From Planctomycetota bacterium (lineage in GTDB: Bacteria > Planctomycetota > UBA1135 > GCA-002686595): a stretch of DNA of 64,000 bases. The notes below the pieces were generated by a model, which worked only from the letters and a program-made list of their open reading frames with translations, was not told the DNA's origin and ran no database searches. Location of the stretch: assembly GCA_028278425.1 (NCBI GenBank), contig JANQEJ010000057.1, positions 1-64,000 of the forward strand, given 5' to 3'. The translations under genes and the position numbers were made by a program. Below are positions 4,914 through 61,565 of the stretch, piece by piece. Numbering within the stretch: the stretch's first letter is position 1; the number at the start of each line of letters is the position of its first letter.

Positions 4914-5354
4914 TCAGCCGAGCCCTCCGGCCCGCGTGGTCATCCACAGGACCAGCGCTCCGCGCGCGCTCCACGCCAGCGTGCGGACCCAGTTGGTCCG
5001 GACGAGCCGCTGGATCGCCTCGGCGTCGTAGCCCAGCGCCAGCCGCGCGTGCTCCGGGACCGAGAGCAGGGCCGTGGCGAGCCAGATGACGGCCACGAGC
5101 CCCAGCCCGAGCCAGACCCACCCCGTCCCGACCCCCGCCGGTCGGGCCTGGAGCAAGAGCATGGCCGTCAGCGCCTCGAGCCCCATCAGCGGAGCCACGA
5201 GCCATCCGATGCGGGCGCAGTGCAACTCGTGATAGCGGACGAACCCCTCGCGGACCTCCGCCATCAGGGGGTAGTGCACGACCTGGACGATCCAGATGAG
5301 CCCGACCAGGGCCAGCGTCGCCAGGAGGTGCAGGGGCAGGACGAGATCGCTCAC
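4914..5354 (-). CDS. small four-helix integral membrane protein, unknown function
   Basis: A 146-aa protein with about four hydrophobic helices (LHLLATLALVGLIWIVQVVHYPL, IGWLVAPLMGLEALTAMLLL, WLGLGLVAVIWLATALL, and WSARGALVLWM). The polar motif VQVVHYPLM followed by FVRYHELHCARIGWLVAPLM is characteristic of a conserved, uncharacterised inner-membrane family. I recognise the pattern but no function. The two conserved His residues facing the helices could bind a metal or haem, which is speculative. It is divergent from the selenoprotein at 5445. Confidence 0.7.
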   Translation of the reverse strand: MSDLVLPLHLLATLALVGLIWIVQVVHYPLMAEVREGFVRYHELHCARIGWLVAPLMGLEALTAMLLLQARPAGVGTGWVWLGLGLVAVIWLATALLSVPEHARLALGYDAEAIQRLVRTNWVRTLAWSARGALVLWMTTRAGGLG

Positions 5355-5444
5355 GCGCTATCCTTCGGCCGGCCAAGCTCGACGGATTCGCCGGGGGCGG
5401 AGCGTTGCGTCCGGACGGGGCCGGCGCGCGAAGCCTCCAGTGCC

Positions 5445-5999
5445 ATGACGGGAATGCGTAACTTGGACCCCGCCATCCTGACGCTGCCCGTTTCCGGGAA
5501 GCGCCTCGGCGAGAGCAAGTCCCTCGGCGACCTCGTTCGCGAGCCGGCGATCCTGGCCTTCCTCCGCCACTGTGGGTGACTGTTCACCCGCGAATGGGTC
5601 GCCGACCTGCGCCGTGTGCGCGAACGGCATCCGGAGCTGCCGCCGATGGTCCTCGTGATGCAGGCGAGCGCCGATCGGGGGGAAAAGCTCCTGAGCGGAC
5701 TCTGGCCGGACGCGCCTTTCGTCTCCGATCCCGAGCTCAGGCTCTACACGGCCTTCGGGCTCGGCCGCGGTAGCCTGGGCGAGGTGATGGGACCGGCCAC
5801 GTGGCTCGCCGGCCTGCGCGCGCTGCGCAAAGGCCATTTCGTCGGCCGGCCGGTGGGGGATCCGTTGGTGCTTCCCGGTCTGTTCCTCGTGCACGGCGAC
5901 CGCGTGCTCTGGCGGCACGCCTTCGCCCACTCGGGCGACCAGCCGTCGGAGGAGGAGCTCCTCGCCGGCGTGCGAACGGCGCTCGCGAGCGCTCCGTGA
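5445..5999 (+). CDS. SelL-related peroxiredoxin-like selenoprotein (UGA = Sec45)
   Basis: The ORF track splits this gene into two pieces. Read through the in-frame TGA at 5577-5579, it gives 184 aa with the layout of the thioredoxin-fold AhpC/TSA-like (AAED1/SelL-related) family. LAFLRHCG-U-LFTREWVADLRRVRERH matches the family pattern in which U replaces the nucleophilic Cys of RHFGCxFCRE. After it come VSDPELRLYTAFGLGRGS, then GHFVGRPVGDPLVLPGLFLV and RHAFAHSGDQPSEEELL, all collinear with the family. The second Cys of the usual CxxC is Thr here. It probably reduces peroxides or disulfides in the cytosol. The alternative is a pseudogene with one nonsense mutation. The exact position of the TGA and the second selenoprotein in the window argue against that. 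Confidence 0.82.
5595..5628 (+). promoter_or_regulatory. candidate bacterial SECIS element after the UGA
   Basis: Two small hairpins lie at the distance expected for a bacterial SECIS. In the first, T-G-GGTC / GCC loop / GACC-T-G at 5595-5609, the loop opens with G about 21 nt after the UGA. In the second, GCCG..GCGC-CGTGT-GCGC..CGGC at 5601-5628, the loop is about 33 nt after it and has G second. They exclude each other, and a fold with SelB constraints is needed to choose. A third perfect hairpin, GGGTGA-CTGT-TCACCC, includes the UGA itself. Confidence 0.5.
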
Positions 6000-48043: not shown

Positions 48044-50611
48044 CTAGTCGGCCCTTTGCGCCGATCCCGCTTTCGCGGAGCCGGTAGCCGGTGCTCCCTT
48101 CTCGCCCGGCTCGCGCGGGTGGGCCGGCGTCAGCACGTCCTCGCCTTCGTCCTTTCCGGCGTGCGCGTCGGACTTGCCGTTGCTCCCCGGCCGCAGGCGC
48201 ATCAGGAGCCTGGACAGGCGTTGGCGCCACGGGCTCTGGAGTTGCGGGGTGGACTTCTTCCAGTCCGGGGAGAGGAGGTCTTCCATCACGAGCTTCGACG
48301 GCGTGTAGAAGGAGTGCACCATCACGAACTGGAGCTTCTCGTTCAGCGTTCGCTGACCCGTGTCCTCCTCGGCCTCGACCTCGACCTCGATCTCGTTGGG
48401 ACCCTTCGGACCGGTCGCGCCCTCCGCGACCGTTGCCTTCTCCGAGACCGTGTCGCCCTCGGCAACCGACGCGCTCTCCGCGACCACGTCGCTCACCGAG
48501 ACGTCTCCTTGTTCCGAAGCCGTCGCTCCCGAACCCTGGGGGGCCGCCTGTACGGTCGGAAAGCGCTGCTTGGCTTCGCGGAAGAGCTCTTCGAGCCTCT
48601 CCATGCGCTCCGTGGTCCTGCTGTCTCGAATGTGCTCGACGCACCGCCCGATCACGACGTCGGGGTCGATCGGGCGACGGCTTCGAAAGTCCTTGGGGAC
48701 GAGCTCGAGCGCGATGAGGGCGTTCCAGTCGAAGCGGCGCAGGAGCCGGCGGGCGCAGGCCCGCCGCTTCTCGACCGTCGTGTACAGCTCGGCCAACTCG
48801 GCGTCGAGGGCGTCCTTGTTGGCCTTGGCCAGGCTGGGGTCGCGGCTGTTGTTGTAGACCTGGCGGAGCTTGCTGCGCAGCGTCCTGAGGTAGTTGAAGT
48901 ACGCCAGCACGTTCACGAGGGGCTGGCGCGTCTGGAACTTCTTCGTGGCGAGCTTGTCGTTGATCCAGAGCAGGAGCCGGTCGTACAGGTTCGCGATGCC
49001 GATCGACTTGCCCGCCGGGCTCTCGAACAGGGTCGAGCGCAGGAGCGCCGTCGGCGTCACCGCGATGATCGACGCGGCCAGCACGCTGTCGTAGCGGACC
49101 TTGCCGGTCTCGGCCAGGTACACGTACAGGACGCCGATCAGGATGAGGTTCACGCCGATGAAGAGCAGCGAATACCGATTGAGCAGGTTGAAGATGCTGC
49201 CCTGATACCAGCGCCGGAGATCGAGGATGTTGAAGAAGACGACCGCGAAGAGAATCAGCCCGAGGTTGAAGAAGGGCCAGATGCCGTAGCAGCTATGGAG
49301 CAGCCGCACCTTCATCTCGAGCTTGGTGCGCAGATCGAAGGTCCGCTCGATGTTGATCGGCGTCAGGACGCCTTTCGGATTCTGTTCGTCGGCTGGATCG
49401 GCGCGATAGATCGTGGGGACAGCGATGTTCTCGGCGTCCGTGCCGAACTTCATGCCGGTCTGGCTGCCTTCGATCCTGCCGCTCAGCCGCTCGGTCAGCT
49501 CCGTCTTGAGCCGCGCGGGGTCTCCGCCCACCTCGTCGAGCGCGGCGAAGACGAGACGCGCCGTGTCGAAGGAGATGGCCTCGGCTTCGTCGACGAACTC
49601 CCTCGGCGGAATCAGGTCCGGCACCTCCTTCCGCGGTTCGAGGAGCGACAGGAAGTGGAAGCCCGGGTATTCCGCCGCGAGCCCCCGCGCGTCGAGGATC
49701 GTGAAGAAGATCGGCTTGTAGGGCGTCGAGGAGCCGTTCATGGTGAGGAAACGGCTGAGGATGCAGTCGATCTCCTCGCGCGAGCCGAACATGCCGACCG
49801 CTTCCGGCCGCTCGTTCAAGAGCTGGCGCACGCGGTCGTCGAGGTTCTCCCGTGCGTCGTACTGCAGCGGCAGGTACCCGTGCTTGAGGTCCATCGGGAG
49901 CGCCTTGCGGAAGGCGGCCTCGGCGCGCTCGCCGTAGGCGTTGTCCGCGTAGAGAACCGCACACGAGCTCACCCAGAACTTGCCGACGAAGTCGGCCATC
50001 TGTCGGACGCGCTCTCCGTCGCTCACGTTGGTGCGGAAGATCCAGTCCGCGGCCTTCCCGGCGCTCTTCAGCACCTCCGGCTTGATCTCCGCCGTGACCA
50101 TCGAGGAGACGACCGGGACCATGTTCTCCATCACGCCCGCGTCGTCGGCGTCCTCGGCCTCTCCCGCGACGTCCTCGTCCTCCGCGCCTTCGGCGTCGCC
50201 CGCGGGCTCAGCGTCCTCGGGGACGGCCTCCGTGAGCGCCTCTTCCTTCGCCTGCTCCTCGCGCAGCAGGGCGGCGGCCTCTTCGAGGATGCGGACGTAG
50301 ACGCCGCTGTCGGTCGGCCCGAGGACGGCGCGCACCCTGTCCTGCTCGAGCAGCGCCTGGAACTCGGTGAGCCCTTCGCGCTCGTCTCCGTAGGACCGGA
50401 CCACGAGCCGGATGCGGTCTTCCTTCTTGAGGACCCGGAGCGCGTTCTTGATGCCGCGCTCGAAGTTCGCGCCGGTCGGCGTGTTGATGCGCAGAACCCC
50501 GACCGGAATGCGCGTATCGTCGCCCGCGTCTTCCTCTCCTTGCGACGCCGCGGCGGGCGCGGCGAGCACGAGGAGGAAGACCGAAACGAGCCGAATCCAG
50601 CGTATGATCAA
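48044..50611 (-). CDS. membrane receptor-like protein with periplasmic-binding domain
   Basis: An 855-aa protein. A signal peptide is followed by residues of about 35-425 that look like a type I periplasmic-binding fold (Leu/Ile/Val-binding type): IPVGVLRINTPTGANFERGIKNAL, AVLGPTDSGVYVRILEEAAALL, MVPVVSSMVTAEIKPE, DWIFRTNVSDGERVRQMADFV, AVLYADNAYGERAEAAFRK. A 50-residue acidic insert splits it. Three or four membrane helices follow at about 460-560, then a 290-residue cytoplasmic tail with a Ser/Glu/Val-rich segment. No kinase, GGDEF or HAMP motif is seen. It may sense a small ligand outside and signal through an unknown tail. Confidence 0.65.
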   Translation of the reverse strand: MIIRWIRLVSVFLLVLAAPAAASQGEEDAGDDTRIPVGVLRINTPTGANFERGIKNALRVLKKEDRIRLVVRSYGDEREGLTEFQALLEQDRVRAVLGPTDSGVYVRILEEAAALLREEQAKEEALTEAVPEDAEPAGDAEGAEDEDVAGEAEDADDAGVMENMVPVVSSMVTAEIKPEVLKSAGKAADWIFRTNVSDGERVRQMADFVGKFWVSSCAVLYADNAYGERAEAAFRKALPMDLKHGYLPLQYDARENLDDRVRQLLNERPEAVGMFGSREEIDCILSRFLTMNGSSTPYKPIFFTILDARGLAAEYPGFHFLSLLEPRKEVPDLIPPREFVDEAEAISFDTARLVFAALDEVGGDPARLKTELTERLSGRIEGSQTGMKFGTDAENIAVPTIYRADPADEQNPKGVLTPINIERTFDLRTKLEMKVRLLHSCYGIWPFFNLGLILFAVVFFNILDLRRWYQGSIFNLLNRYSLLFIGVNLILIGVLYVYLAETGKVRYDSVLAASIIAVTPTALLRSTLFESPAGKSIGIANLYDRLLLWINDKLATKKFQTRQPLVNVLAYFNYLRTLRSKLRQVYNNSRDPSLAKANKDALDAELAELYTTVEKRRACARRLLRRFDWNALIALELVPKDFRSRRPIDPDVVIGRCVEHIRDSRTTERMERLEELFREAKQRFPTVQAAPQGSGATASEQGDVSVSDVVAESASVAEGDTVSEKATVAEGATGPKGPNEIEVEVEAEEDTGQRTLNEKLQFVMVHSFYTPSKLVMEDLLSPDWKKSTPQLQSPWRQRLSRLLMRLRPGSNGKSDAHAGKDEGEDVLTPAHPREPGEKGAPATGSAKAGSAQRAD

Positions 50612-50853: not shown

Positions 50854-52470
50854 ATGCGACTTGCTTTCGCTCTCGCTCTCGCCACGACGCTGACGTGGGG
50901 TGCGAACACATCGGCCCAATGCGTGCTTCAGAAGCTGACGGTCGAGGGGAGCTACGGCTCGATCGGAAACCCCGAGGGGCGGGCGATCGCCGTCGAGGGG
51001 GACCTGATGGTGATCGGAATTCCCACCTTCATCTCCTATCCGACGGGGTGGCCGGGCGTGAGCGCCGGGGGAGCCGCGGTCTTCGAACGGACCGGCGGAA
51101 CCTGGGTGCAGACGGACGTGTTGCTCCCGAGCGATCCGGTGGACGAGAAGAGCTTCGGCTGGTCCGTGGCGATCTCCGGCGAGCGCGTGGTGATCGGTGC
51201 GCCGTGGGAGCTCGACGTGATCGGCAGCAAACCACCCGGAGACGTGTACGTCTTCGAACGCTCCGCCAACGGCTGGGTCGAGACCGCCAAACTCCAGGGC
51301 GCCGGTCTCGGTATCTACGCCAAGATGGGCTGGAGCGTCGACGTCGACGGCGACGTGATCGTCGCCGGTGCGCCCGGCAACCAGATCACGTCGTCCGCCG
51401 GGAGCGTCTTCGTCTTCGAGCTCCAGGGCGGGCTTTGGACCGAGACCGCCGCGCAGCACTGGCCCTCGTCCTCGGAGCAGCTCGGTGAAGCGGTCGCCGT
51501 CGAGGGGGACACGATCCTCGCCTGGGTCGAGTCCATGAACGCGCGCGTCGAGGTGCTCGCGCGAAGCGGCGCGACCTGGTCGATCGTCGACGAGATCGTT
51601 CCCGACGATCCCGAGCCCTTCGATGCCTTCGGATACTCCCTATCGCTCGACGACGATCGCGTGGCCATCGGCGCGCCGGATCGGGACGACGGGAAAGAGG
51701 ACTCCGGCGCGGCTTACGTGTTCGACCGCACCGCGGGCGTCTGGACGCAGACGGTCAAGCTGACCGCGAGCGATCGATCGGCGGAAGACGAGCTCGGACA
51801 CGTGGTCTCGTTGGATGCGGACGTGGTGTTGGTCGGCGCTCCCAACGGCGCCGATTTCTACGGAAGCGCCTACCTGTACCGCGAGTCCGGCGGCGCGTGG
51901 AGCGAGACCCAGGTGCTGGCGCCCGACGGCGAGCAGTACGACTTCTTCGGAACCGAAGTCGCGCTCGAAGGCGACGACATGTTCGTCCTGAGCCCCGACG
52001 ACGGAGGCGATCCCTCCCCCGGCCCAGGATCGGTGTACGCCTGGTCCGTGAGCGAGGCCGGCTGCCCGACGCTGCTCGGGCTGGACGCGAGCGTGTCGCT
52101 GTCGGCCGGCGGCGAGCAGCTCCTGCTCCTGGACGCGGGCGCGGCGCACGCGGGGCTGGTGTACCTGCTCCTCGGGACGAGCGCGGGCACATTGCCGGGG
52201 ATTCCGGTGGGCTCGGTCGTGCTGCCGCTGAATCACGACGGCCCCGGAGGCTATCTGCTGCACACGCTGGCGAACCCGAACAAAGCGCCGCTCGACAACT
52301 CGTTGGGCTTCTTCGACTCGGACGGACGGGCGAGCGCGCGCTTCCAGATTCCGCCGGGGACGACGCCGTTGCTGTCAGGCCTCGAGCTGCACCATGCCTA
52401 CGTCGTCCTCGACCCCGGCCTGGCAGCGGTGTTTGCGAGCGAGGCGGAGCCCGTGACCCTGGTCGACTGA
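50854..52470 (+). CDS. exported FG-GAP protein with shared C-terminal module
   Basis: A 538-aa secreted protein from ATG 50854 (signal MRLAFALALATTLTWGANTSAQ). Residues of about 30-410 are seven FG-GAP-like repeats of the AVEGDLMVIGIP / VDGDVIVAGAPGN / LDADVVLVGAPNGAD type found in extracellular beta-propellers. A GSVFVFEL or GSVYAWSV strand follows each. Residues of about 412-538 carry the module shared with the proteins at 1781 and 27686 (ASVSLSAGGEQLLLLDAGAAHAGLVYLLLG, GTLPGIPVGSVVLPL, ANPNKAPLDNSLGF, LHHAYVVLDP). It converges with the giant protein gene 7 bases away. The ligand is unknown. Confidence 0.85.
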   Translation: MRLAFALALATTLTWGANTSAQCVLQKLTVEGSYGSIGNPEGRAIAVEGDLMVIGIPTFISYPTGWPGVSAGGAAVFERTGGTWVQTDVLLPSDPVDEKSFGWSVAISGERVVIGAPWELDVIGSKPPGDVYVFERSANGWVETAKLQGAGLGIYAKMGWSVDVDGDVIVAGAPGNQITSSAGSVFVFELQGGLWTETAAQHWPSSSEQLGEAVAVEGDTILAWVESMNARVEVLARSGATWSIVDEIVPDDPEPFDAFGYSLSLDDDRVAIGAPDRDDGKEDSGAAYVFDRTAGVWTQTVKLTASDRSAEDELGHVVSLDADVVLVGAPNGADFYGSAYLYRESGGAWSETQVLAPDGEQYDFFGTEVALEGDDMFVLSPDDGGDPSPGPGSVYAWSVSEAGCPTLLGLDASVSLSAGGEQLLLLDAGAAHAGLVYLLLGTSAGTLPGIPVGSVVLPLNHDGPGGYLLHTLANPNKAPLDNSLGFFDSDGRASARFQIPPGTTPLLSGLELHHAYVVLDPGLAAVFASEAEPVTLVD

Positions 52471-52477
52471 AGGCGAC

Positions 52478-55400
52478 TCAGGGCAGCCGGAGCGAGACCT
52501 CTCCCCGAGCCCAGGAGGGAACCGTCGTCCTGCACGTCGCCGCCGTACCTGCCGCCGTCCTCGCTCGAACTTCGTATTCGCCGCGCGGTAGACCGCGCAA
52601 CGACAAGCTCCCGCCGTCGTCGGTGATCAGGGCGGTTCCTCCCGACGAGAGGACGCGGCCCGCTTCGACCCAATCTTCGACTTCGCCAGGGAATCCGAGC
52701 GACGCGACCTCGAGTGCCACGCGCGGCACGGCCTCTCCTCCGGCGCACAGGACGCGCACGACGAGATCTCCCGTCCGCACGAGCTGCACCACCTTCGGCT
52801 TCGTCCGAGTGCGCGTGGCTTCGACGAGCGCGTCGGCGGTCCAGTAGCCCGGCGCGCCGACCATCAGCCGGTACCTCCCCGGCCCCATGCGCGTCCACGC
52901 CACGCGGCCCTGCCGGTCGGGATGGCGGCGCGGCAGGCCGAAGCTCGAGCCCGGAAGCTCCAGGTAGGCCTTCACGCCCGTCACGGGCTCGGCGCCGTCT
53001 TTCAATTGCACGGCGACCGTGTAGCTCGTGTCGACCACGACGTCGACGACTTGATCGGGATCGGCGGGGACGTCCGCGGGAATTCCGAGGTGGGTCCCGA
53101 AGACCGGCTGGTAGACCACGAGGCTCAAGCGCCCGCACGGCGGCGCCTCGAGCGTGAAGTAACCGTCGCCGTCCGCGTCGACCTCGGTGGACCAGCCGCC
53201 GGCTCCTCCGCCTTCGCAATTGGCGTGGACCGACGCGCCCGGGATCGGATCGCCGGCGCTCGTGACGGCTCGAAAGCGAAAAGCCTGCGGCGTGCCGAGC
53301 ACGAGCGAGACCGTCTGCGGTCCGGGCGGCGCTAGAGCGACGCGCTCGCGCGCGACGGTGTCGCCGCTCGAGTCTTCGATCTCGAGGACGACCTCTTCTC
53401 CGGCGAGCGCGGGGAACACCGCCTTCCGCTCCTCCGAGAGCTCGGCCCAGACGAAGCTCGATCCCGAAGAGCCCTGGTGGTGAGCGCCGACGTAGGCGGT
53501 GTCGGCGAGATGGATGCCTTCCTTCTCTGGAACTTCCACGATGAGCTCCGTGCCAGCGTCCAATCGCCATTCGACGTGCCAGGGCTCCGCGTTGCTCAAG
53601 TTCCGCGAGAAGTACGACCAGCGGCCATCCGGGTGCTCGATATGGAAGAGGTAGTAGCCGTCGATGCACCCATCGAGCTGGACGAGGCCGTCGGAGGAAA
53701 ACCCCGTCGGCCCGAAGCGACGCATGCCGCTCGTCGAGAGCTCGAACGCTGAGAAGTCGGTGATCTCGTCCGACACGAGTTGCACCGTCATCGATCGCGT
53801 CGGATAGAGCGGCAGATCGCCGAAGTCCAGAAGCTGACCGGGGATCGGGACCGTCGAGACGTAATCCTCCTCGTAGTCGGGAGCGTTGACCATGAGCCGG
53901 GCGTTGCCCGGTGCAAAGGCTTCGGCGCGAAAGCGCCCGTCGGAGTCGACGGGATGCGGCGGCCCCCAGGCGGTGGTGAACTGGCCGCCGACGCTCGAGT
54001 AGACCTGGATCTCCGCGTCGTCGATCGGCAGGTACGTGTTCCCGTCGATCACCCGGCCGACGCCGACGACGGGGTCGGTCAGCTCGAGCTCCGCCCGAGC
54101 GACTTCGTCGGGACGGATGCGAACCGTGACGATCTCGCTCTGCGTGTGCTTCGGGCTGAAGGCGTAAAGGCTGATGACGCCCTCGGGCACGGTCTCGACG
54201 ACGAAGCGCCCGTCCTCGGCATCGTCGACGACGGTCCATTGGAAGTCGATGGGATGATCGTCCCAGTGGATGACGTCGTACTTGTCGACGGGCTCGCCTT
54301 TGTGCGTGACGACCACTTCGAGCTTGCCCGACCGGCCGAGCGCGAGCACGTACTCGTCCTCCTCCGGGGGAAGGCGGTAGGGCCCGAAGAAGCGGCGCTC
54401 GTAACCCTCCGCGTCGGCGAGGAAGCTGAACTCGTCTTCCTTCGGAAGACCGCCGATCTCGACGCGACCTTCCTCGTCGGCGTCGTACCAAGCGGACCAG
54501 TCTGGATCGTGCACGAAGGAACAGCAGGCGCGGGCCGTGCGAATCGGCTCTCCTTCCGCGTTCTCGATGCGGGCTGTGACCGATTCGCCGAACGTCGCCT
54601 CGATCGTGACGTCCACCGACCCGCCTTCGGATGGAACTTGGAAAGGAACGCGCTTCGCGAAGAGCCCTCCGCCGGCGAGCCGACAGTCCGCCTCTGCGGT
54701 ACGCGGCGAATGGAACTCGGCCGGGCCGAACGTCCCATCGTTTTCGACGGCAAGGCTACCGAGCTCCTCCCAATCCGAGTCGGTGTCGACGGCGACGCGA
54801 ACGAGCACGTCTTCCGGAAACGGCGGATCGTCGGCGAGGAACACGGTGCCCGAGAGCCGAAAGCCCGATCGCAGGACGAGCTCGAGCTCCTCCTTCTCGT
54901 GCGCCCACTTCGACGGCGATATGCGCGCGCCCTGTTTCGCCTGGGCCACGACCTGTTTCGGCGCTGCGGGGAGCAGGCAACGGCCGGCCTCGTCCGTCGT
55001 TTCGGTCCAGACGAACACACGTTGCGCGCGGACCTCCCAGGGATCGCGGGAGCTCTTGTGCTTGCCCCAGAAGAGCCCGCGAACCGTCACCGTCGCGCCG
55101 GTGGCGACGGCTCCCGAGGAATCGCGCACGGTAACGGAAACAGGTTTGGCTGGTTCGAGTCGCACCTCCCGCGCGACGAGGAGGTCCCGCCGATCGAGCA
55201 GCAAGAGCGGCTGGGCCATATGCCCCGCGTGCACGACCCAGATCACCGACGGCACCGCCGGTTCCCCCTGGGGCAGGTCGAACGCGAACTCTCCGTCGAG
55301 GCCCGACGTCGCGACGACCGACGCCTCGGCGATGGCCTCCCAGTCCTGGCTGCGCCAGGCGCGCTCCTGAAACTCGTCGCGAAGCTGCGTCCAAGTGAGC

Positions 55401-55702
55401 GTTGCGGCCGCGATGGGCGAACCGTCGGCGGAGATCACGCGGCCGCGGAGTTTCTCGGGGACAGCCGTGCGTTGGAGCGGCGCGTGAGGTTCCGTGGACT
55501 TCACTTGCCGCGGCGCGGCTGGCGGCCGGTTCCCGACCGCCCACGGCGGGGCTTCGTTGATCTCGGGGGTCGCTTGCTCCGACGGCGGAGCCGAGGGATG
55601 GGGAATCGCTGTTGGTTCCTTCGACTCGAAGGTGTGTCGAACCGCGATGGAGCACAGGATCAGTAGGAGAGCGAGGGAAAGGACAAAGAGTGAGGTCTTC
55701 AT
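52478..55702 (-). CDS. giant exported carboxypeptidase-regulatory-like protein, copy 2
   Basis: A 1074-aa protein from ATG 55702, N-terminal signal or anchor (MKTSLFVLSLALLLILCSIAV), then a Pro-rich linker and a chain of beta-sandwich modules of the carboxypeptidase regulatory-like/Ig-like type. The first is LRGRVISADGSPIAAATLTWTQLRDEF and others start at LSGTVFLAD, VGVGRVIDGNTYLPIDDAEI and LVVRVLCAGGEAVPRVALEV. It is a collinear relative of the protein at 56307 (VGGQFTTAW, NARLMVNAPDYEEDYVSTVPIPGQLLDFGDLPLY, VRTGDLVVR). No catalytic domain is present. An envelope or surface scaffold role is inferred. It is the last gene of the cluster. Confidence 0.8.
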   Translation of the reverse strand: MKTSLFVLSLALLLILCSIAVRHTFESKEPTAIPHPSAPPSEQATPEINEAPPWAVGNRPPAAPRQVKSTEPHAPLQRTAVPEKLRGRVISADGSPIAAATLTWTQLRDEFQERAWRSQDWEAIAEASVVATSGLDGEFAFDLPQGEPAVPSVIWVVHAGHMAQPLLLLDRRDLLVAREVRLEPAKPVSVTVRDSSGAVATGATVTVRGLFWGKHKSSRDPWEVRAQRVFVWTETTDEAGRCLLPAAPKQVVAQAKQGARISPSKWAHEKEELELVLRSGFRLSGTVFLADDPPFPEDVLVRVAVDTDSDWEELGSLAVENDGTFGPAEFHSPRTAEADCRLAGGGLFAKRVPFQVPSEGGSVDVTIEATFGESVTARIENAEGEPIRTARACCSFVHDPDWSAWYDADEEGRVEIGGLPKEDEFSFLADAEGYERRFFGPYRLPPEEDEYVLALGRSGKLEVVVTHKGEPVDKYDVIHWDDHPIDFQWTVVDDAEDGRFVVETVPEGVISLYAFSPKHTQSEIVTVRIRPDEVARAELELTDPVVGVGRVIDGNTYLPIDDAEIQVYSSVGGQFTTAWGPPHPVDSDGRFRAEAFAPGNARLMVNAPDYEEDYVSTVPIPGQLLDFGDLPLYPTRSMTVQLVSDEITDFSAFELSTSGMRRFGPTGFSSDGLVQLDGCIDGYYLFHIEHPDGRWSYFSRNLSNAEPWHVEWRLDAGTELIVEVPEKEGIHLADTAYVGAHHQGSSGSSFVWAELSEERKAVFPALAGEEVVLEIEDSSGDTVARERVALAPPGPQTVSLVLGTPQAFRFRAVTSAGDPIPGASVHANCEGGGAGGWSTEVDADGDGYFTLEAPPCGRLSLVVYQPVFGTHLGIPADVPADPDQVVDVVVDTSYTVAVQLKDGAEPVTGVKAYLELPGSSFGLPRRHPDRQGRVAWTRMGPGRYRLMVGAPGYWTADALVEATRTRTKPKVVQLVRTGDLVVRVLCAGGEAVPRVALEVASLGFPGEVEDWVEAGRVLSSGGTALITDDGGSLSLRGLPRGEYEVRARTAAGTAATCRTTVPSWARGEVSLRLP

Positions 55703-55898
55703 GACCCCACAGGGATAAGGGCGAAGGGACTTGGTAGCTATCCACGGCGGACCGGGTGACCACCTCAAGTCTGCCGTCAGAAACAACTTGCCGAAGTCTC
55801 AGCTCTCAGGACGATCGTCCAAGATCAGCTCCCGAGACGGCGAATTCCCCGATTCGCTAGCCGGTGTTTACTCGAAAGAGCACCGGGTGCAAGCGTGA

Positions 55899-55912
55899 TG
55901 GAACAAGTTCCA
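55899..55912. promoter_or_regulatory. 14-bp palindrome after the second small peptide gene
   Basis: TGGAACAAGTTCCA is perfect with a 2-bp centre and lies directly after the peptide stop, upstream of the giant gene copy 2. A possible operator; no T-run, so not a normal terminator. Confidence 0.35.
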
Positions 55913-55913
55913 A

Positions 55914-56099
55914 CTACCCGCCGTAGTCCGGGGGCGGTGTCTTCCTTACGGGCGGCGCCGGAGTGTCAGAGCTACTGCCCCGGGTCACCTCAGGCCCAAC
56001 CTGCGGAGGGGGCGGAGCGGCGTTCAGTAGCGGCGGCAACGCAGCGCCGAGCACGAACAGTAGAAGAAGGGATTGTCGAGTGATTCTCGAGAACGGCAT
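55914..56099 (-). CDS. small exported Pro-rich peptide, copy 2
   Basis: A 61-aa product from ATG 56099 with an excellent AGGAGG 6 bases upstream. The track has it only as the tail of an 86-aa ORF. It has an N-terminal export signal (SRITRQSLLLLFVLGAALPPLLNA) followed by a short charged and Pro-rich tail (PPPPQVGPEV, SSSDTPAPPVRK, PPPDYGG). The ending SSDTPAPPVRK..GG parallels SSTDTPPNRK..GGGG of the peptide at 59516, which also precedes a giant protein. The giant copy 2 follows after 211 bases. It may be a surface peptide or a partner of the giant protein. Confidence 0.62.
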   Translation of the reverse strand: MPFSRITRQSLLLLFVLGAALPPLLNAAPPPPQVGPEVTRGSSSDTPAPPVRKTPPPDYGG

Positions 56100-56277
56100 G
56101 GAGGTCCTCCTGCAACAAGGGATGGCGAAGTGGAAGCTCATCACGCCGGATGCCTTCTGGCGCCAGTTCAGCAAGGTCTGACTTGGCGTTCTGGTGGAAA
56201 CTCCCGATCCTCACAAGACTTAGAACACCAGTGAGCTTCTGCGGTGCCTCAGCTCGACTTGTAGCGACGAGACGAAT

Positions 56278-56299
56278 TCACCGGTTTGGATGCCGGTGA
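56278..56299 (-). terminator. hairpin after giant protein copy 1
   Basis: TCACCGG-8-CCGGTGA (7-bp stem) lies 8 bases after the stop of the 56307 gene. No T-run follows on the minus strand, so termination is uncertain. Confidence 0.4.
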
Positions 56300-56306
56300 T
56301 TTTGAC

Positions 56307-59300
56307 TCAAGGGACGCGAAGTTCGACCTCTCCGTCTCCTCCGGACGGGACTTCCACCTCGTGTCGTATCGTCTGTCCCGTCGACGACTCCGCCTGCACG
56401 ACGTAGTTCCCTCGGGGCAAGCCGCTGAGCCACAAGCTACCATCGCCCCGCGTCATCAGCGCAAGTTGGCCAGACGAGATCACGCGCCCCTCTGCGATCC
56501 AGGTGGGCACGTCTCCCGAAACTCCAAGGGACTGCACTTCGATCTCTAGGCCCGGGACTGGGTTGCCATCTGCCTTCTTGGCTCGGACGATCAGGTTCCC
56601 CGTCCGTACAAACTGGACTTGGTGCTCCTGCTTGGAAGTTCGCGTTGCCACGGCCACCGCTTCCGTGAACCAGTAACCCGGCGCGCCCGCCTTGAGCACG
56701 TACGATCCTGGCCCGAGCTGTGTCCACATCAGGCGTCCGTCGCTGTCCGGATACCGTGCCGGGAGATCGCGCCGGCTCTCGACGTGGGTGAGGAAGGCCT
56801 TGATGCCCGTTACCGGCTTGCCGCCGTCCTTCAGTCGAAAGCGGACGGAGTACGCCGGGTCGATCTCAACGTCGACGACTGCATTCTCGTCGGCAGGGAT
56901 GTTGACGAGGATCCCGTACTGATGTCCATAGTCGGGATGGAACACGGAGAGGTGGAGCGGGTCGCAGGGTGGGCTTTGCAGGCCGGCGATGCCCTCGTTG
57001 TCCGTGCGGGCTCGCGTCGCCCAACCAGTGGTGTCATCCTGACACCTCGCGTGGATGGAGGCTCCCGAGACGGGGCTCGACGCCGGATCCACAACGCGGA
57101 CTCGAACCGGCGAGGCGACCAATCGCAGAGAGGCAGTTTGCGGGCCAGGTGCGGCCAGCTCTTGGTTCTTACGGGCTAGGAGCTCCCCCGCCGCGTTTCG
57201 AACCTCGAGCACGCTCTCGTCCCCCAGGAGGGATGGAAAGACCGTCCGACCGTCCGACACCTTGGCTCGAGTCGATCGCGGACCGGAGCCCCCGCGGTGG
57301 TACGCCGTTACGGTGGTGTCCTTCGGTAGCGCCGAGCCGTCCGAACTCTCCAATTCGACGACCAGGTGCGTGCCCGTCGCCAGCTCCCAGTCCACTTCCC
57401 AGGGAGTTCCGTTGTAGAGGTAGCGGTAAAAGCTCGACGACGCTCCGCTAGGCGACAGGATTGTGAAGGAGTAGTACCCCGCAACGCAGCCTCGAAATTC
57501 GGCGATTCCTTCGGGCGAAAAGGCCTTAGCGGGGAAGCGACGAACTCCTCCGACCGAGACCTGGTATCCGGACAGGTCGATTGCATCCTCGGCGATCAGT
57601 CGAACAGAAAGCGAACGGGCCGCGTAAAGAGGAAGCGCACCGAAGTCGAGGAGTTGTCCGGGCAAGGGCGTTGCCGAGACGTAGTCTTCCTCGTAGCCCG
57701 GCGCGTTCACGATCAAGCGAGCGTTCTTGGGAGAGAAGCCGTTCACCCGAAAGCGGCCGTCGGAGTCCACTCCCTGCGGATCGCTCCACGGCGTCATGAA
57801 CTGTCCGCCCACGCTCGTGAAGGGTTCCACCGTCGCCTCCGGCAGCGGAAGAAAAGTCTGGCCATCGATGACCCTCCCGGTCCCCACGATCGGGTCGGGG
57901 AGGTCGAGGCTTGCCTCCGCCAACTCCGTTGAGCTCACGTGAACCGTCGCCGTGTCGCTCTGAGCGAATTCCTCGTTGTAGGCATAGAGATGAAGGAGCC
58001 CTTCCGGGACGGCCTCCAGCAGATAGCGTCCTCCCGGAGCGTCCTGGACGTCGAGCCATTGAAGATCGTAGGGCGAGTCGTCCCAGTAGATGAGCTGGAA
58101 GCGTTCGACCGGCTCGTCTCCATGTCGCACGACGACCTCGACGTCGCCTGCACTGCGCAGGGAGAGGACGATCGGCTCGGGATCCTCCCGCGGCAGCGGA
58201 TACGGACCGAAGATCCAGGTCTCGTACCCCTCCGCCTTGGTGTCCAGATTGAATTCGCCTTCACGGGGCAGGCCGGCGACTTGGACAAGACCTTCGTCGT
58301 CGGAATAGAACCACTCCGTTCGGTTGGGTTCCGACTCGAAGAGACCTTGTATGCCTGCTCCGCTGATCGGCTCACCGTCCGCGCTCTGCACGAGTGCGAG
58401 AGCGGCGTGGCCCTCCTCGGCGCTGATCGTAACGAAGACTGACCCGCCCTCGTCTGGAACTGCAAAGCGCGCGAGCGGTGCCAAGAGCCCGCCGCCTACG
58501 AGTCTGCACCATGCTTCTCCGGCGGGTGGAGCCTGGAAGACGAACGGGCCGAACTTGCCGTCAGGGCGAACCGCCAGGCTGCCCAGAGTCCGGTCTCCGT
58601 GGTCGGTGCGTGCTTCCACAAACACGGATGCACCGTCGGCGAAGGGAACGACTTCACCGGACAACGAAAAGCCGGACTCTAGAACAAGGTCCACCGAAGG
58701 AACGGCGCTCCCGGAGTACGTGGAAGAGACCTGGTCACCGTGGATGGCGCGAATCGACGCCTCATCGAGCATGGCGGGAAGGACGCAACGACCGTCTTGA
58801 TCCGTCGTCGCTGTGCGGAAGAAGACACGCTGGCTGCGGACCTCCCATTCGTCGCGGTGTCGTTCATCGCTCCAGAGGACGAAGCCGCGTTGCTCGACGC
58901 GTGCCCCGGGAATCGCGGTGTCCCAGGCGTCTCGGACTCTCACCCGGATAGAGTCCTGTTCCTCGAGTCGTATCGCCGGCTTCCCTAGCAAGTCTCCTTC
59001 GCTGAGCAGGAGAATACGAGCTGCTTCATTGCCGGAATGTGTTGCCCACAGTACAGAGGGGACAGGAGGCTCCTCGAGGGGCAACTGAATCGCGAATGCA
59101 CCAGTGGAGTCGGTAAGTGTTTCGATCGTCGCACGAGCCAGCCTCTCCCATTGCTGGCTCCGCCATGAGTTGACCGCAAACTCGTCTCGTAAGGGAGTCC
59201 AGGTTACGGAGACGCCTTCGAGAGGTTGGTCATCTGCGGTCAGGACACGACCTGTCAGGTGCGTGGTTGCAGTCTCTGCTCGCCGCTGACCAAGCGCGTC

Positions 59301-59498
59301 GCGAGCGGGCACAGCAAGAGCATCGGGAGCAGCTTCATCCGGCTGCGCGTCTCTCGTGGATGCGGCGGCTTCCGATGTGGCTGCTCCTACAGGTGCAGCG
59401 AGTGAAGAGTCGGTGTCGACTCTCGGCCAGGAGAACCACGATGCTGTCGCCGCGGCAGCCAAAAGGGCTCCAACGATCGCAAGGCGACTCAGCCTCAT
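56307..59498 (-). CDS. giant exported carboxypeptidase-regulatory-like protein, copy 1
   Basis: A 1063-aa protein with an N-terminal membrane segment (RLAIVGALLAAAATASWFSW) and an Ala/Asp-rich linker. A series of carboxypeptidase-regulatory-like and Ig-like beta-sandwich modules follows, starting LTGRVLTADDQPLEGVSVTWTPLRDEF, with later ones at LSGEVVPFADG, VGTGRVIDGQTFLPLPEATV and VRVVDPASSPVSGASIHARC. It is a paralogue of the 52478 protein along its whole length, for example NARLIVNAPGYEEDYVSATPLPGQLLDFGALPLY and AGAPGYWFTEAVAVATRTS. No protease motif is seen. It starts 17 bases after the small peptide gene. Its role at the cell surface is inferred. Confidence 0.8.
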   Translation of the reverse strand: MRLSRLAIVGALLAAAATASWFSWPRVDTDSSLAAPVGAATSEAAASTRDAQPDEAAPDALAVPARDALGQRRAETATTHLTGRVLTADDQPLEGVSVTWTPLRDEFAVNSWRSQQWERLARATIETLTDSTGAFAIQLPLEEPPVPSVLWATHSGNEAARILLLSEGDLLGKPAIRLEEQDSIRVRVRDAWDTAIPGARVEQRGFVLWSDERHRDEWEVRSQRVFFRTATTDQDGRCVLPAMLDEASIRAIHGDQVSSTYSGSAVPSVDLVLESGFSLSGEVVPFADGASVFVEARTDHGDRTLGSLAVRPDGKFGPFVFQAPPAGEAWCRLVGGGLLAPLARFAVPDEGGSVFVTISAEEGHAALALVQSADGEPISGAGIQGLFESEPNRTEWFYSDDEGLVQVAGLPREGEFNLDTKAEGYETWIFGPYPLPREDPEPIVLSLRSAGDVEVVVRHGDEPVERFQLIYWDDSPYDLQWLDVQDAPGGRYLLEAVPEGLLHLYAYNEEFAQSDTATVHVSSTELAEASLDLPDPIVGTGRVIDGQTFLPLPEATVEPFTSVGGQFMTPWSDPQGVDSDGRFRVNGFSPKNARLIVNAPGYEEDYVSATPLPGQLLDFGALPLYAARSLSVRLIAEDAIDLSGYQVSVGGVRRFPAKAFSPEGIAEFRGCVAGYYSFTILSPSGASSSFYRYLYNGTPWEVDWELATGTHLVVELESSDGSALPKDTTVTAYHRGGSGPRSTRAKVSDGRTVFPSLLGDESVLEVRNAAGELLARKNQELAAPGPQTASLRLVASPVRVRVVDPASSPVSGASIHARCQDDTTGWATRARTDNEGIAGLQSPPCDPLHLSVFHPDYGHQYGILVNIPADENAVVDVEIDPAYSVRFRLKDGGKPVTGIKAFLTHVESRRDLPARYPDSDGRLMWTQLGPGSYVLKAGAPGYWFTEAVAVATRTSKQEHQVQFVRTGNLIVRAKKADGNPVPGLEIEVQSLGVSGDVPTWIAEGRVISSGQLALMTRGDGSLWLSGLPRGNYVVQAESSTGQTIRHEVEVPSGGDGEVELRVP

Positions 59499-59515
59499 CT
59501 TCTTGAGACGCGTGC

Positions 59516-59719
59516 CTATCCGCCTCCACCGCCTCCGCCGCCGACGGTTCTCTTGGCGACCTTGCGATTTGGCGGTGTATCGGTACTTGAATCGCTTGGA
59601 CTCGCGGAGCTGTCCCCATCAGAGGGAGGAGGTGATGCACCGACTGCCCAGAGCGACGTTGTCGCACCGAGCAAGAGCACGACAAGAAAAGACACAACGA
59701 GGCGTCTAGAGCAGCGCAT
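59516..59719 (-). CDS. small exported Pro/Ser/Gly-rich peptide, copy 1
   Basis: A 67-aa product from ATG 59719 (the track shows it only as the end of a 128-aa ORF). Its start overlaps the 3' end of the TPR-like gene by 14 bases, so it is translationally coupled. It has an export signal (RRLVVSFLVVLLLGATTSLWAVGA), then PPPSDGDSSASPSDSSTDTPPNRK and a C-terminal run of eight Gly. The layout of signal, PPP, SS.DTP..RK and terminal Gly is shared with the peptide at 55914. It lies 17 bases before giant copy 1. No function is known. Confidence 0.65.
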   Translation of the reverse strand: MRCSRRLVVSFLVVLLLGATTSLWAVGASPPPSDGDSSASPSDSSTDTPPNRKVAKRTVGGGGGGGG

Positions 59720-60644
59720 GCAAGCACTCCCGGGGAAAGGGGCCCACGTTGTCCGCAAGCTGGAGGGCCAGTTCGCGGCGTTTCGGGGGCAAGGTCCATT
59801 GGCTTCCGTCACTAATCGTCCGGACGCGGTTCGCGGCATCCTCGAGGCGCCGTTTGGGTAGCTGATCGAGATCGGCGATAACGCTCGCTGCCTCGTGCAC
59901 ATCCTTGCCGTCGCCGAGCTGGAGATCTAGGTAGACGACATTCAGGAGATACTCGACTGAAATGCTGGGGTCGAGATCGCCCGCAAGCGCGATGCTTGCC
60001 GCTTCTTTGTATGCCGCGAGCGCCTCCGCGGGTCTACGTAGATCGGTTAGCGCCATACCGACGGTACCGAGTGCAGAGGCGCGGATTCGCGGTGAATGTG
60101 GCTCAGCGGCGACTTCTCGCCCCAACCTAACGGCGGAGTTGAACTGCCCCAGTGCACAGGTCTCAAACACCAAGTACGCGCGGGCGTTTGGCGCATCTTC
60201 GAGCTCGAGGGAGGCCCAGAGCAACCTCATACGAGAGGGCATTGTGGGCTCGCCTCTCGGCCGAATGAAGCGTTCCAGCACCAGCACCTCCGGCCTATTC
60301 TGTAGTGCCTCCGGCAGGGCGGCGAGCCGATCTCGCGCGATCCCTTCGAGCTGTTGCCGCGACTTCGTCATCACTCGTCGGTTACGCGCCGATGCCGGGT
60401 GCGCGAAGAACTCCGACAAGAAGGCTTCCCTCAACAGCCACGCCATCTCATGCCGGTGAACCTCCAGAAGCTTCTCCTCCGCCGGCAACAACCCCGTCCG
60501 CGAAGCCGCCACCTGCAAGCTCCCATCCCTCAACCCACAAAGCAACTTCCGCGGCTCCGTCAGGAACAACGACGCCCTCGGATCCTTCGACAGATCCGCG
60601 ATGACTTGCTCGAGGTCGGGATCGATGGGCGCAAGGTCAGCCAT
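59706..60644 (-). CDS. TPR-like helical protein of the giant-protein cluster
   Basis: A 312-aa cytoplasmic protein. Start ATG 60644 is chosen over the track start because GGAGG sits 5 bases before it and it overlaps the upstream gene stop (ATGGCTGA). Residues of about 60-290 are helical, with a TPR-like pair near the C-terminus (ASALGTVGMALTDLRRPAEALAAYKEAASIAL and VEYLLNVVYLDLQLGDGKDVHEAASVI). The N-terminal 60 residues (DPDLEQVIADLSKDPRASLFLTEPRKLL) are not recognised. It lies between the sigma-like gene and the small peptide in a coupled operon, which suggests a regulator or assembly partner. Confidence 0.62.
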   Translation of the reverse strand: MADLAPIDPDLEQVIADLSKDPRASLFLTEPRKLLCGLRDGSLQVAASRTGLLPAEEKLLEVHRHEMAWLLREAFLSEFFAHPASARNRRVMTKSRQQLEGIARDRLAALPEALQNRPEVLVLERFIRPRGEPTMPSRMRLLWASLELEDAPNARAYLVFETCALGQFNSAVRLGREVAAEPHSPRIRASALGTVGMALTDLRRPAEALAAYKEAASIALAGDLDPSISVEYLLNVVYLDLQLGDGKDVHEAASVIADLDQLPKRRLEDAANRVRTISDGSQWTLPPKRRELALQLADNVGPFPRECLHALL

Positions 60645-61263
60645 CCGGACCTCCTTCCTCGTTCCTCCGCTCTTCCATCGCAAGGAGGACCGCCTGCGAG
60701 GCTAGCCGAAGAGCCTCCCGCGCCTTGTCCGGCGGCCCATAGCCCTCGGCGACGTAACGGTTGAGCGTCTTGCCCGCGATCGCCACGGCGTAGAAGACGC
60801 GACGTTGATCGATCGGCAGGTTGTTCACGGTAAGACACACGAGCCGCGTGAGCTCCAATTCGATTCCGGAAAGCTCGGAGAACAAGCGATAGTATTCCAC
60901 CTCGGGCGATTCCGAGACGGGGAGCCGGCGGGATTCCTCCTGGTACTGGCTGATGCCGAGGTCCTTCGCCGACTTGATGATGCACCGGTCGAGCCATTCG
61001 CCGAGCGAGGGGGATCCCTCGTAGAACATCGACTCGAAGGCGACGCGCGCGAGGCAATGCTCGACGAAGGTCTTCGGGTTCAGGAGCAGCGCTTCGCGGG
61101 CCAGCGCGCCGAGCGCGCGCGGCAGGATGTCGAGCGGGTCGCCGTCGTGCAGGCGCCGCAGGATCTCGGGGGGAGAGCCGCCGCGGAGAATGTCGGAGCC
61201 GGGGAAGCGAACCTCATCGGAGGCCTTTCCCGTTTCGCCGGTTCCCTCTCTCCTTTCCTCCAA
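60637..61263 (-). CDS. sigma-factor-like/HTH protein of the giant-protein cluster
   Basis: A 208-aa protein starting at TTG 61263 with GAGGAG 6 bases upstream (no ATG or GTG fits). The C-terminal half has the flavour of ECF sigma region 4: NNLPIDQRRVFYAVAIAGKTLNRYVAEGYGPPDKAREALRLASQAVLLAM. Residues of about 85-110 (SLGEWLDRCIIKSAKDLG) resemble region 2.4. The match is by eye, and the family may be a divergent sigma-like or anti-sigma-like group. It is the first gene of the coupled run leading to the TPR-like protein, small peptide and giant protein, so it may control that run. Confidence 0.6.
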   Translation of the reverse strand: MEERREGTGETGKASDEVRFPGSDILRGGSPPEILRRLHDGDPLDILPRALGALAREALLLNPKTFVEHCLARVAFESMFYEGSPSLGEWLDRCIIKSAKDLGISQYQEESRRLPVSESPEVEYYRLFSELSGIELELTRLVCLTVNNLPIDQRRVFYAVAIAGKTLNRYVAEGYGPPDKAREALRLASQAVLLAMEERRNEEGGPDG

Positions 61264-61565
61264 GCTCTACTCCTCGTTGGGGATCACGGAGGATGCAGCC
61301 GCAAGGTAACGATGCGAGTCTAGGGCATCCCCTCCGCACCGGCAACGGCTCCTGAGACTCTCTCGACCGCGAATGGAGAACCGCTGACGCAGCTCGTTCC
61401 GTGCGACGAGCACAACACAACCTCGGACCATGGCCAGCCCGATCAGCTCAATAGGAACGCGGCTCAACGGGATGCACGCACGAGAAGGGCGAACGGTCGG
61501 AATCCTCGGCGATTCCTGCCGCCGTCGTCTGACCGAGCTCACCTAATCGGTTGAGCCGTAGACGG
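61264..61565. other. intergenic region upstream of the sigma-like gene
   Basis: About 300 bases without a convincing gene. It should hold the promoter for the minus-strand cluster. I see no clear -10/-35 pair, palindrome or terminator. Confidence 0.5.

Follow-up and report, generated by a model that had tools for sequence, protein, structure and literature searches.

A recurrent planctomycete operon of sigma-like, TPR, small-peptide and giant-protein genes

The window analyzed here is a stretch of 64,000 nucleotides (nt) from a Planctomycetota bacterium (contig JANQEJ010000057.1, positions 1 to 64,000), whose minus strand carries at 52478–61263 a run of six genes in the order S, T, P1, G1, P2 and G2, representing a recurrent four-part operon, S-T-P-G, with its last two parts duplicated. 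The first gene, S (60637–61263), starts with a TTG preceded by AGGAG and codes for a protein of 208 amino acids (aa) resembling sigma factors of the extracytoplasmic function (ECF) type. It overlaps by 8 nt with T (59706–60644), which codes for a 312-aa tetratricopeptide repeat (TPR) protein, and P1 (59516–59719), coding for a 67-aa peptide predicted to be exported, shares its first 14 nt with the end of T. G1 (56307–59498), which specifies a 1063-aa membrane-anchored giant, begins 17 nt past P1, and directly past its stop lies a hairpin with a stem of 8 base pairs (56278–56299) that is terminator-like on the plus strand and lacks a T-run on the minus strand. P2 (55914–56099; 61 aa, likewise predicted to be exported) has an AGGAGG ribosome site directly upstream and starts 207 nt past G1, followed after 211 nt by G2 (52478–55702; 1074 aa), a G1 paralogue with the membrane helix MKTSLFVLSLALLLILCSIAV and an ATG start, an alternative TTG at 55786 being possible. 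The original prediction, which had singled out these six genes as a candidate undescribed envelope system, proved exact to the base in its coordinates, overlaps and sizes.

Its description of the giants as collinear paralogues and of the peptides as sharing a common layout also holds: G1 and G2 are 45.5% identical over 1058 codons, with nonsynonymous and synonymous divergence (dN/dS) of 0.51/1.54, and P1 and P2 are 36% identical with the layout as first described. P2 starts within a remnant of the 3′ end of T (LQEDLHAVL, 56086–56112, minus strand), in the same register in which P1 starts within T itself (ECLHALL-stop); hence, the duplicated unit comprised the 3′ tail of T, P and G. When trained on the window, a gene caller based on codon bias recovered S, T, G1 (with a later start) and G2 and called neither P1 nor P2, both of which have ribosome sites as well as the overlaps and gaps given above.

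The S-T-P-G arrangement recurs at 38 loci, which belong to 17 genera within a single planctomycete family of GTDB and include the strains Pla86 and Pla163, with the P-G order kept, so that the anticipated synteny of peptide and giant in relatives is indeed found. At every G junction read P lies upstream of G, and all full-length G proteins in ten genomes are encoded either within S-T loci or next to a further G in tandem. When the window's S alone served as query, relatives of S were found in 56 of 101 genomes, all within the window's GTDB family, and a scan of genome contigs with the same query gave no match; a 34-row profile raised this to 79 of the 81 sampled family genomes and 41 of 42 genera. 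In a phylum-wide sample, that profile gives weak matches outside the family, most of them limited to region 4 at the C-terminus, and T matches at E≤1e-15 come from the window's family only. Since S is present in 79/81 family genomes and, as with T, was not found as such outside, it is part of what defines the group.

The gap between T and G offers a direct gauge of the reality of P. Under a strict small-ORF (open reading frame) test, demanding 50–100 aa, a basic N-terminus, a hydrophobic core and a start at the end of the upstream gene, 29 of 32 T-G gaps are positive, as against 0/16 gaps between T and the gene X of a sister operon described below and 0/69 unrelated same-strand gaps (Fisher p about 3e-22), in keeping with the suggestion that small ORFs of this type recur before such giants. 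In 23 of 38 loci the start of P is at exactly −13 nt, so that P shares 14 nt with the end of T. Across the G-type loci P is 52–93 aa long, and by a home-made rule 36/38 display a basic N-terminus, a hydrophobic core and a possible signal peptidase site. The mature part, which is Gly/Pro/Ser-rich in P1, contains 17% Pro and 17% Gly and is nearly devoid of cysteine. In the closest available ortholog pair (loci L038 and L078), P shows dN 0.063 and dS 0.334 (dN/dS about 0.19), the mature part alone dN 0.051 and dS 0.451, and 11 of the 18 nucleotide changes fall at third positions; the codon-level selection asked of the peptide is thus of the purifying kind in this single close pair. Between paralogues the ratio is about 0.2–0.8, with dS near saturation. 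The last residue of P is Pro in 22/38 loci as compared to 6.0 expected from composition (p 1e-9), whereas a C-terminal Pro occurs in only 61/532 other genes (11.5%) and 4/38 genes with Pro-rich tails. This Pro is encoded by all four Pro codons, indicating that the constraint acts on the residue. As the loci are related by descent, the p values of the tests on P overstate the strength of the evidence. In the genus g32, P carries the lineage motif GGG..GSGS-(I/V/M)-P-(P/T)...P-COOH. A terminal motif common to P and G was considered and rejected: G, too, often ends in Pro, but there this residue closes the final strand, and the endings of P and G are not associated. P is a real, conserved gene, and its product looks, by its sequence, to be exported.

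The AlphaFold model of G1 (mean predicted local distance difference test score, pLDDT, 84.5) comprises a transmembrane helix (residues 3–22), a disordered segment (23–77) and a beta-sandwich rod reaching to the end of the protein. Six stretches of G1 match CarboxypepD_reg (1.5e-36), and the gathering cut-off of this family (PF13620, 32.3 bits) is exceeded by both G1 (125 bits) and G2 (108.7 bits). Most G N-termini appear to be uncleaved anchors, though in G1 a cleavage near residue 20 appears possible by eye. Among PDB chains, NOMO2 gives the best profile match (about 127 positions, E 7e-7), and the Foldseek matches (TIE protein, pilins and macroglobulins) are generic and partial.

S returned no Pfam and no NCBIfam family and does not reach the curated ECF cut-off. 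Its AlphaFold model (mean pLDDT 92.6) recovers ECF sigma factors as its top Foldseek matches in PDB, the best full-chain E-value being 3.3e-3; the full-chain TM-score is low because the placement of the domains differs, with region 4 alone reaching 0.77–0.83 against region 4 of SigmaE (2h27). TIGR02937 is reached by six of 34 S family members (best 1.8e-4), and the S profile can be aligned with same-genome ECFs across the two domains (E 1.5e-5). Taken together, the predicted structure and these profile matches place S within the ECF sigma fold, as a divergent member. It is more acidic than same-genome ECFs (mean net charge −4.5 vs −0.2), and given this acidity and the missing curated-family scores, promoter activity cannot be assumed. 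The genome G000 carries a large ECF repertoire, with 94 sigma-70 region-4 matches over the family cut-off. TPR matches in Pfam were obtained for 12 of 32 T proteins (best 1.3e-10), and the best PDB profile matches of T are generic TPRs.

Upstream of S, a candidate promoter of the housekeeping type can be read by eye at 61317–61345 on the minus strand (TTGCCG at 61345–61340, a 17-nt spacer and TAGACT at 61322–61317), with eight of 12 positions matching the consensus, which is below the promoter-scan threshold. Four relatives (L038, L063, L083 and L085) have TTGACA or TTGACG with a similar spacer upstream of S. Separate promoters for each gene, which would speak against a single unit, were not seen: the scan found no promoters of the sigma-70 type between the window genes, although it also misses the by-eye promoter before S. 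S-T-P-G is one operon. A sigma-autoregulated promoter common to all the operons was sought and not found, the cores present in some being of the housekeeping type only. The designation of S as a dedicated sigma-like gene hence stands in part: the sigma fold is upheld, but dedication is unproven, because the core promoter looks to be of the housekeeping type and S-T also occurs without P-G.

The latter arrangement emerged from gene calling around 80 fetched S loci, which defined the operon types. At 25 loci in 18 genera, a homologous S and usually a T are followed in the same order by X, without P and without G. X is a degenerate NtrC-like GAF-AAA-Fis protein; the possibility that it is a working sigma-54 activator was rejected, there being no GAFTGA match in 10 proteins and a Walker A pattern in only two of these. 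In the S tree, the 25 X-type loci all fall within a starred clade of 28 rows (100/99); the G-type rows lie outside it, and the deep forks are weak. All G-type loci have a full-length T, but in many X-type loci T is short or absent. S-T-X is seen, for instance, in the window's own genome (L033:1643–4318, contig C337) and at L050, L057, L070 and others, X being roughly 900 aa in length, and S-T-X is often trailed by a membrane protein of roughly 455 aa. Also in the window's own genome (L031, contig C128), S-T is followed by an amidase-like gene and one for a serine beta-lactamase-family protein rather than by P-G or X.

The stop of P lies −4 to +31 nt from the start of G in 27/37 loci, and the mean Shine–Dalgarno run is strong for P (4.9) and weak for G (2.8). 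Junction RNA structure is not in excess over shuffles (mean z 0.005 over 38 loci, with 2/38 below −2), ruling out a SecM-like hairpin at this position. The short junction, the strong and weak ribosome sites and the lack of hairpin excess fit translational coupling of P and G rather than a SecM-type hairpin switch. Coupling could also make P mainly a leader, such that slow release at the proline-stop or an export-relieved pause would set the amount of G, the peptide being a by-product. The constrained terminal Pro, far commoner than expected or in other genes, and the closer proximity to G of those P that end in Pro (p 0.01) are consistent with this, and in E. coli release can be slowed by a Pro at the C-terminus (PMC7246954). 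However, beyond the absence of excess structure, no RAPP-type arrest motif common to P was seen, and the mature part is under purifying selection. Moreover, known secretion-monitoring substrates precede Sec/YidC genes (PMC7897499), and G is neither. P is also retained where G is not its immediate neighbor (P2 of the window at 211 nt, L044 at 277 nt, and L042), which argues that its product matters. On balance, we consider a mere leader role unlikely.

Extra copies starting inside a 3′ remnant of T were separately found in the window, L039 and L069; in the window and L039, P and G were duplicated together without the body of T, and L042 has two tandem copies of P. In L069 (Pla86, about 5257–5679), a 140-aa ORF between two P copies codes for the T C-terminus behind what appears to be its own signal sequence. 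Within the genome G040, two tandem S-T-P-G clusters (L052 and L148, contig C47) are 77% identical in T, 42% in P and 45% in G. The N-terminal halves of their T proteins are near identical, while the TPR halves, P and G have diverged, and dS jumps from 0.02–0.4 to about 1 within T, marking a recombination mosaic. Given these T-remnant duplications and the mosaic, the C-terminal half of T moves together with P and G as one module.

The joint divergence of the TPR half of T and P recalls the RRNPP systems, in which a Sec-secreted propeptide of 10–100 aa adjoins a TPR protein of 250–500 aa (PMC10075063). By analogy, P would be exported and trimmed, and its C-terminal piece would re-enter the cell, bind the TPR groove of T and free or block S, with G as the output. 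T-P has the shape of the five-point signature of such systems (PMC10075063), its size and adjacency falling within range: a propeptide of 52–93 aa with a putative Sec-type signal, adjacent to and overlapping with a TPR partner of 284–335 aa. The constrained end of P is its C-terminus, T is always full length with P and often short or missing in S-T-X, and one locus holds S-T-P without a G. In contrast, RRNPP systems have been described from Firmicutes and their elements, and no homologues of Rap, Rgg, PlcR, NprR, PrgX or AimR are among the 60 best PDB matches of the T profile. Further, the duplications of P and G leave out the body of T, the dS jump in T reflects recombination and not clearly selection, and both the absence of P from S-T-X and the P-G duplications are left unexplained. 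We therefore regard such a circuit as rather unlikely.

A more mundane alternative is an ordinary surface-protein operon, in which P would be a small secreted protein that evolves quickly, plays some unrelated part in the envelope and stays with its neighbors through linkage. Its rapid change between paralogues (33–58% identical) and low-complexity Gly/Pro composition accord with this, but its strict presence with G (29/32 gaps vs none with X or elsewhere) and the repeated duplication as T-tail-P-G speak against it, and we give this alternative little credence. P occurs in all S-T-G loci read and in none of the S-T-X loci, most of which have T-type proteins; thus, P tracks G and not T. We tentatively favor the proposal that P is exported as a partner of G and that its synthesis is coupled to that of G, as the most plausible reading of the operon though far from an assured one. 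S-T-P-G would yield a cytosolic pair, the sigma-derived S and the TPR protein T, and an exported pair, P and G. Ribosomes would enter P at the strong site inside the last codons of T and then pass to G, and since the G site is weak, P and G would probably be made and sent to Sec together. The signal of P would be cleaved, releasing a Gly/Pro-rich peptide of 27–60 residues, and the N-terminal helix of G would anchor its rod in the membrane. Mature P might then bind G as a ligand, cap or linker, completing a structure spanning the periplasm or the surface, with S-T tuning the operon or sensing the state of the envelope.

Several observations weigh against this proposal. Selection on P was measured on one close pair only. 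The tie between terminal Pro and a short P-G distance suggests a role in translation instead. Distance matrices gave no signal of co-variation of P with G or T, and that of P with G beyond S and T is absent (partial r −0.01); P is near saturation, and these tests had no power. At L055 (G040, contig C36), S-T is followed by a 98-aa P ending in Pro, with neither a downstream G nor a G remnant. Nothing ties S to RNA polymerase binding or to control of the S-T-P-G operon. Finally, the contact between P and G, and what P does to G, we infer.

Beyond the end of G2, the window carries a convergent gene on the plus strand (50854–52470), ending 7 nt from that of G2, for an FG-GAP repeat protein (Pfam FG-GAP_2, 2.7e-54), and, on the minus strand (48044–50611), one for a protein of 855 aa whose N-terminus resembles periplasmic binding proteins and which has membrane segments beyond it.

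No family in Pfam, NCBIfam, PADLOC or PHROGs scored above cut-off for S or P1, and T gave weak TPR matches only. Neither S in viral and defense libraries nor T in phages found a match, and the PADLOC anti-phage models matched none of S, T, P1 and G1; a representative X matched only the AAA/HTH part of RtcR-type models. The open-access literature, to which our search was confined, offers no description of these parts together. Thus, the initial impression of a system not previously known is sustained by that literature and by the lack of a database family for S and P1. P adds a large small-protein family of a kind readily missed by gene callers, and a conserved, predicted exported peptide before a rod-like giant presents a concrete target for the study of envelope building or control. 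Were T-P, as seems improbable, a signaling pair of RRNPP-like shape in a phylum of the Gram-negative type, connected to a sigma-derived protein and to a giant rod of the envelope, Planctomycetota would gain their first described peptide circuit of this sort, one that has multiplied and diversified inside individual genomes. Pla86 and Pla163 presumably belong to the shape-shifting ‘Saltatorellus’ clade. According to a published description, the cell biology of that clade has no parallel among the other bacterial phyla (PMC11481906).

G resembles multi-domain CarboxypepD_reg/CnaB-like rods, such as adhesins, pilins and the eukaryotic NOMO, in being a long beta-sandwich stack with one membrane helix, but its anchor is N-terminal, no LPXTG was seen and the matches are generic, leaving a likeness in fold alone. 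T-P is like the RRNPP pairs Rap-Phr and PlcR-PapR in having a TPR gene directly followed by, and overlapping with, one that codes for a small peptide with a putative Sec-type signal; it differs in being planctomycete, in lacking an RRNPP sequence match, in its attached sigma-like and giant genes, and in the absence of the peptide from S-T-X. With the arrest peptides SecM, VemP, MifM and ApdA/ApcA, P shares a short ORF for a predicted exported product just before the next start and the terminal proline, but neither a RAPP-type motif nor a junction hairpin, and the gene downstream codes for G and not for a Sec/YidC component. S shares with ECF sigmas of the sigma-E/AlgU type (TIGR02937) the two-domain fold, a superposable region 4 and weak family matches, yet it falls outside the curated cut-off, is more acidic, has no adjacent anti-sigma with a membrane helix and is instead paired with T. 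The four-part operon as a whole belongs to no kind that can be named, its parts resembling known folds.

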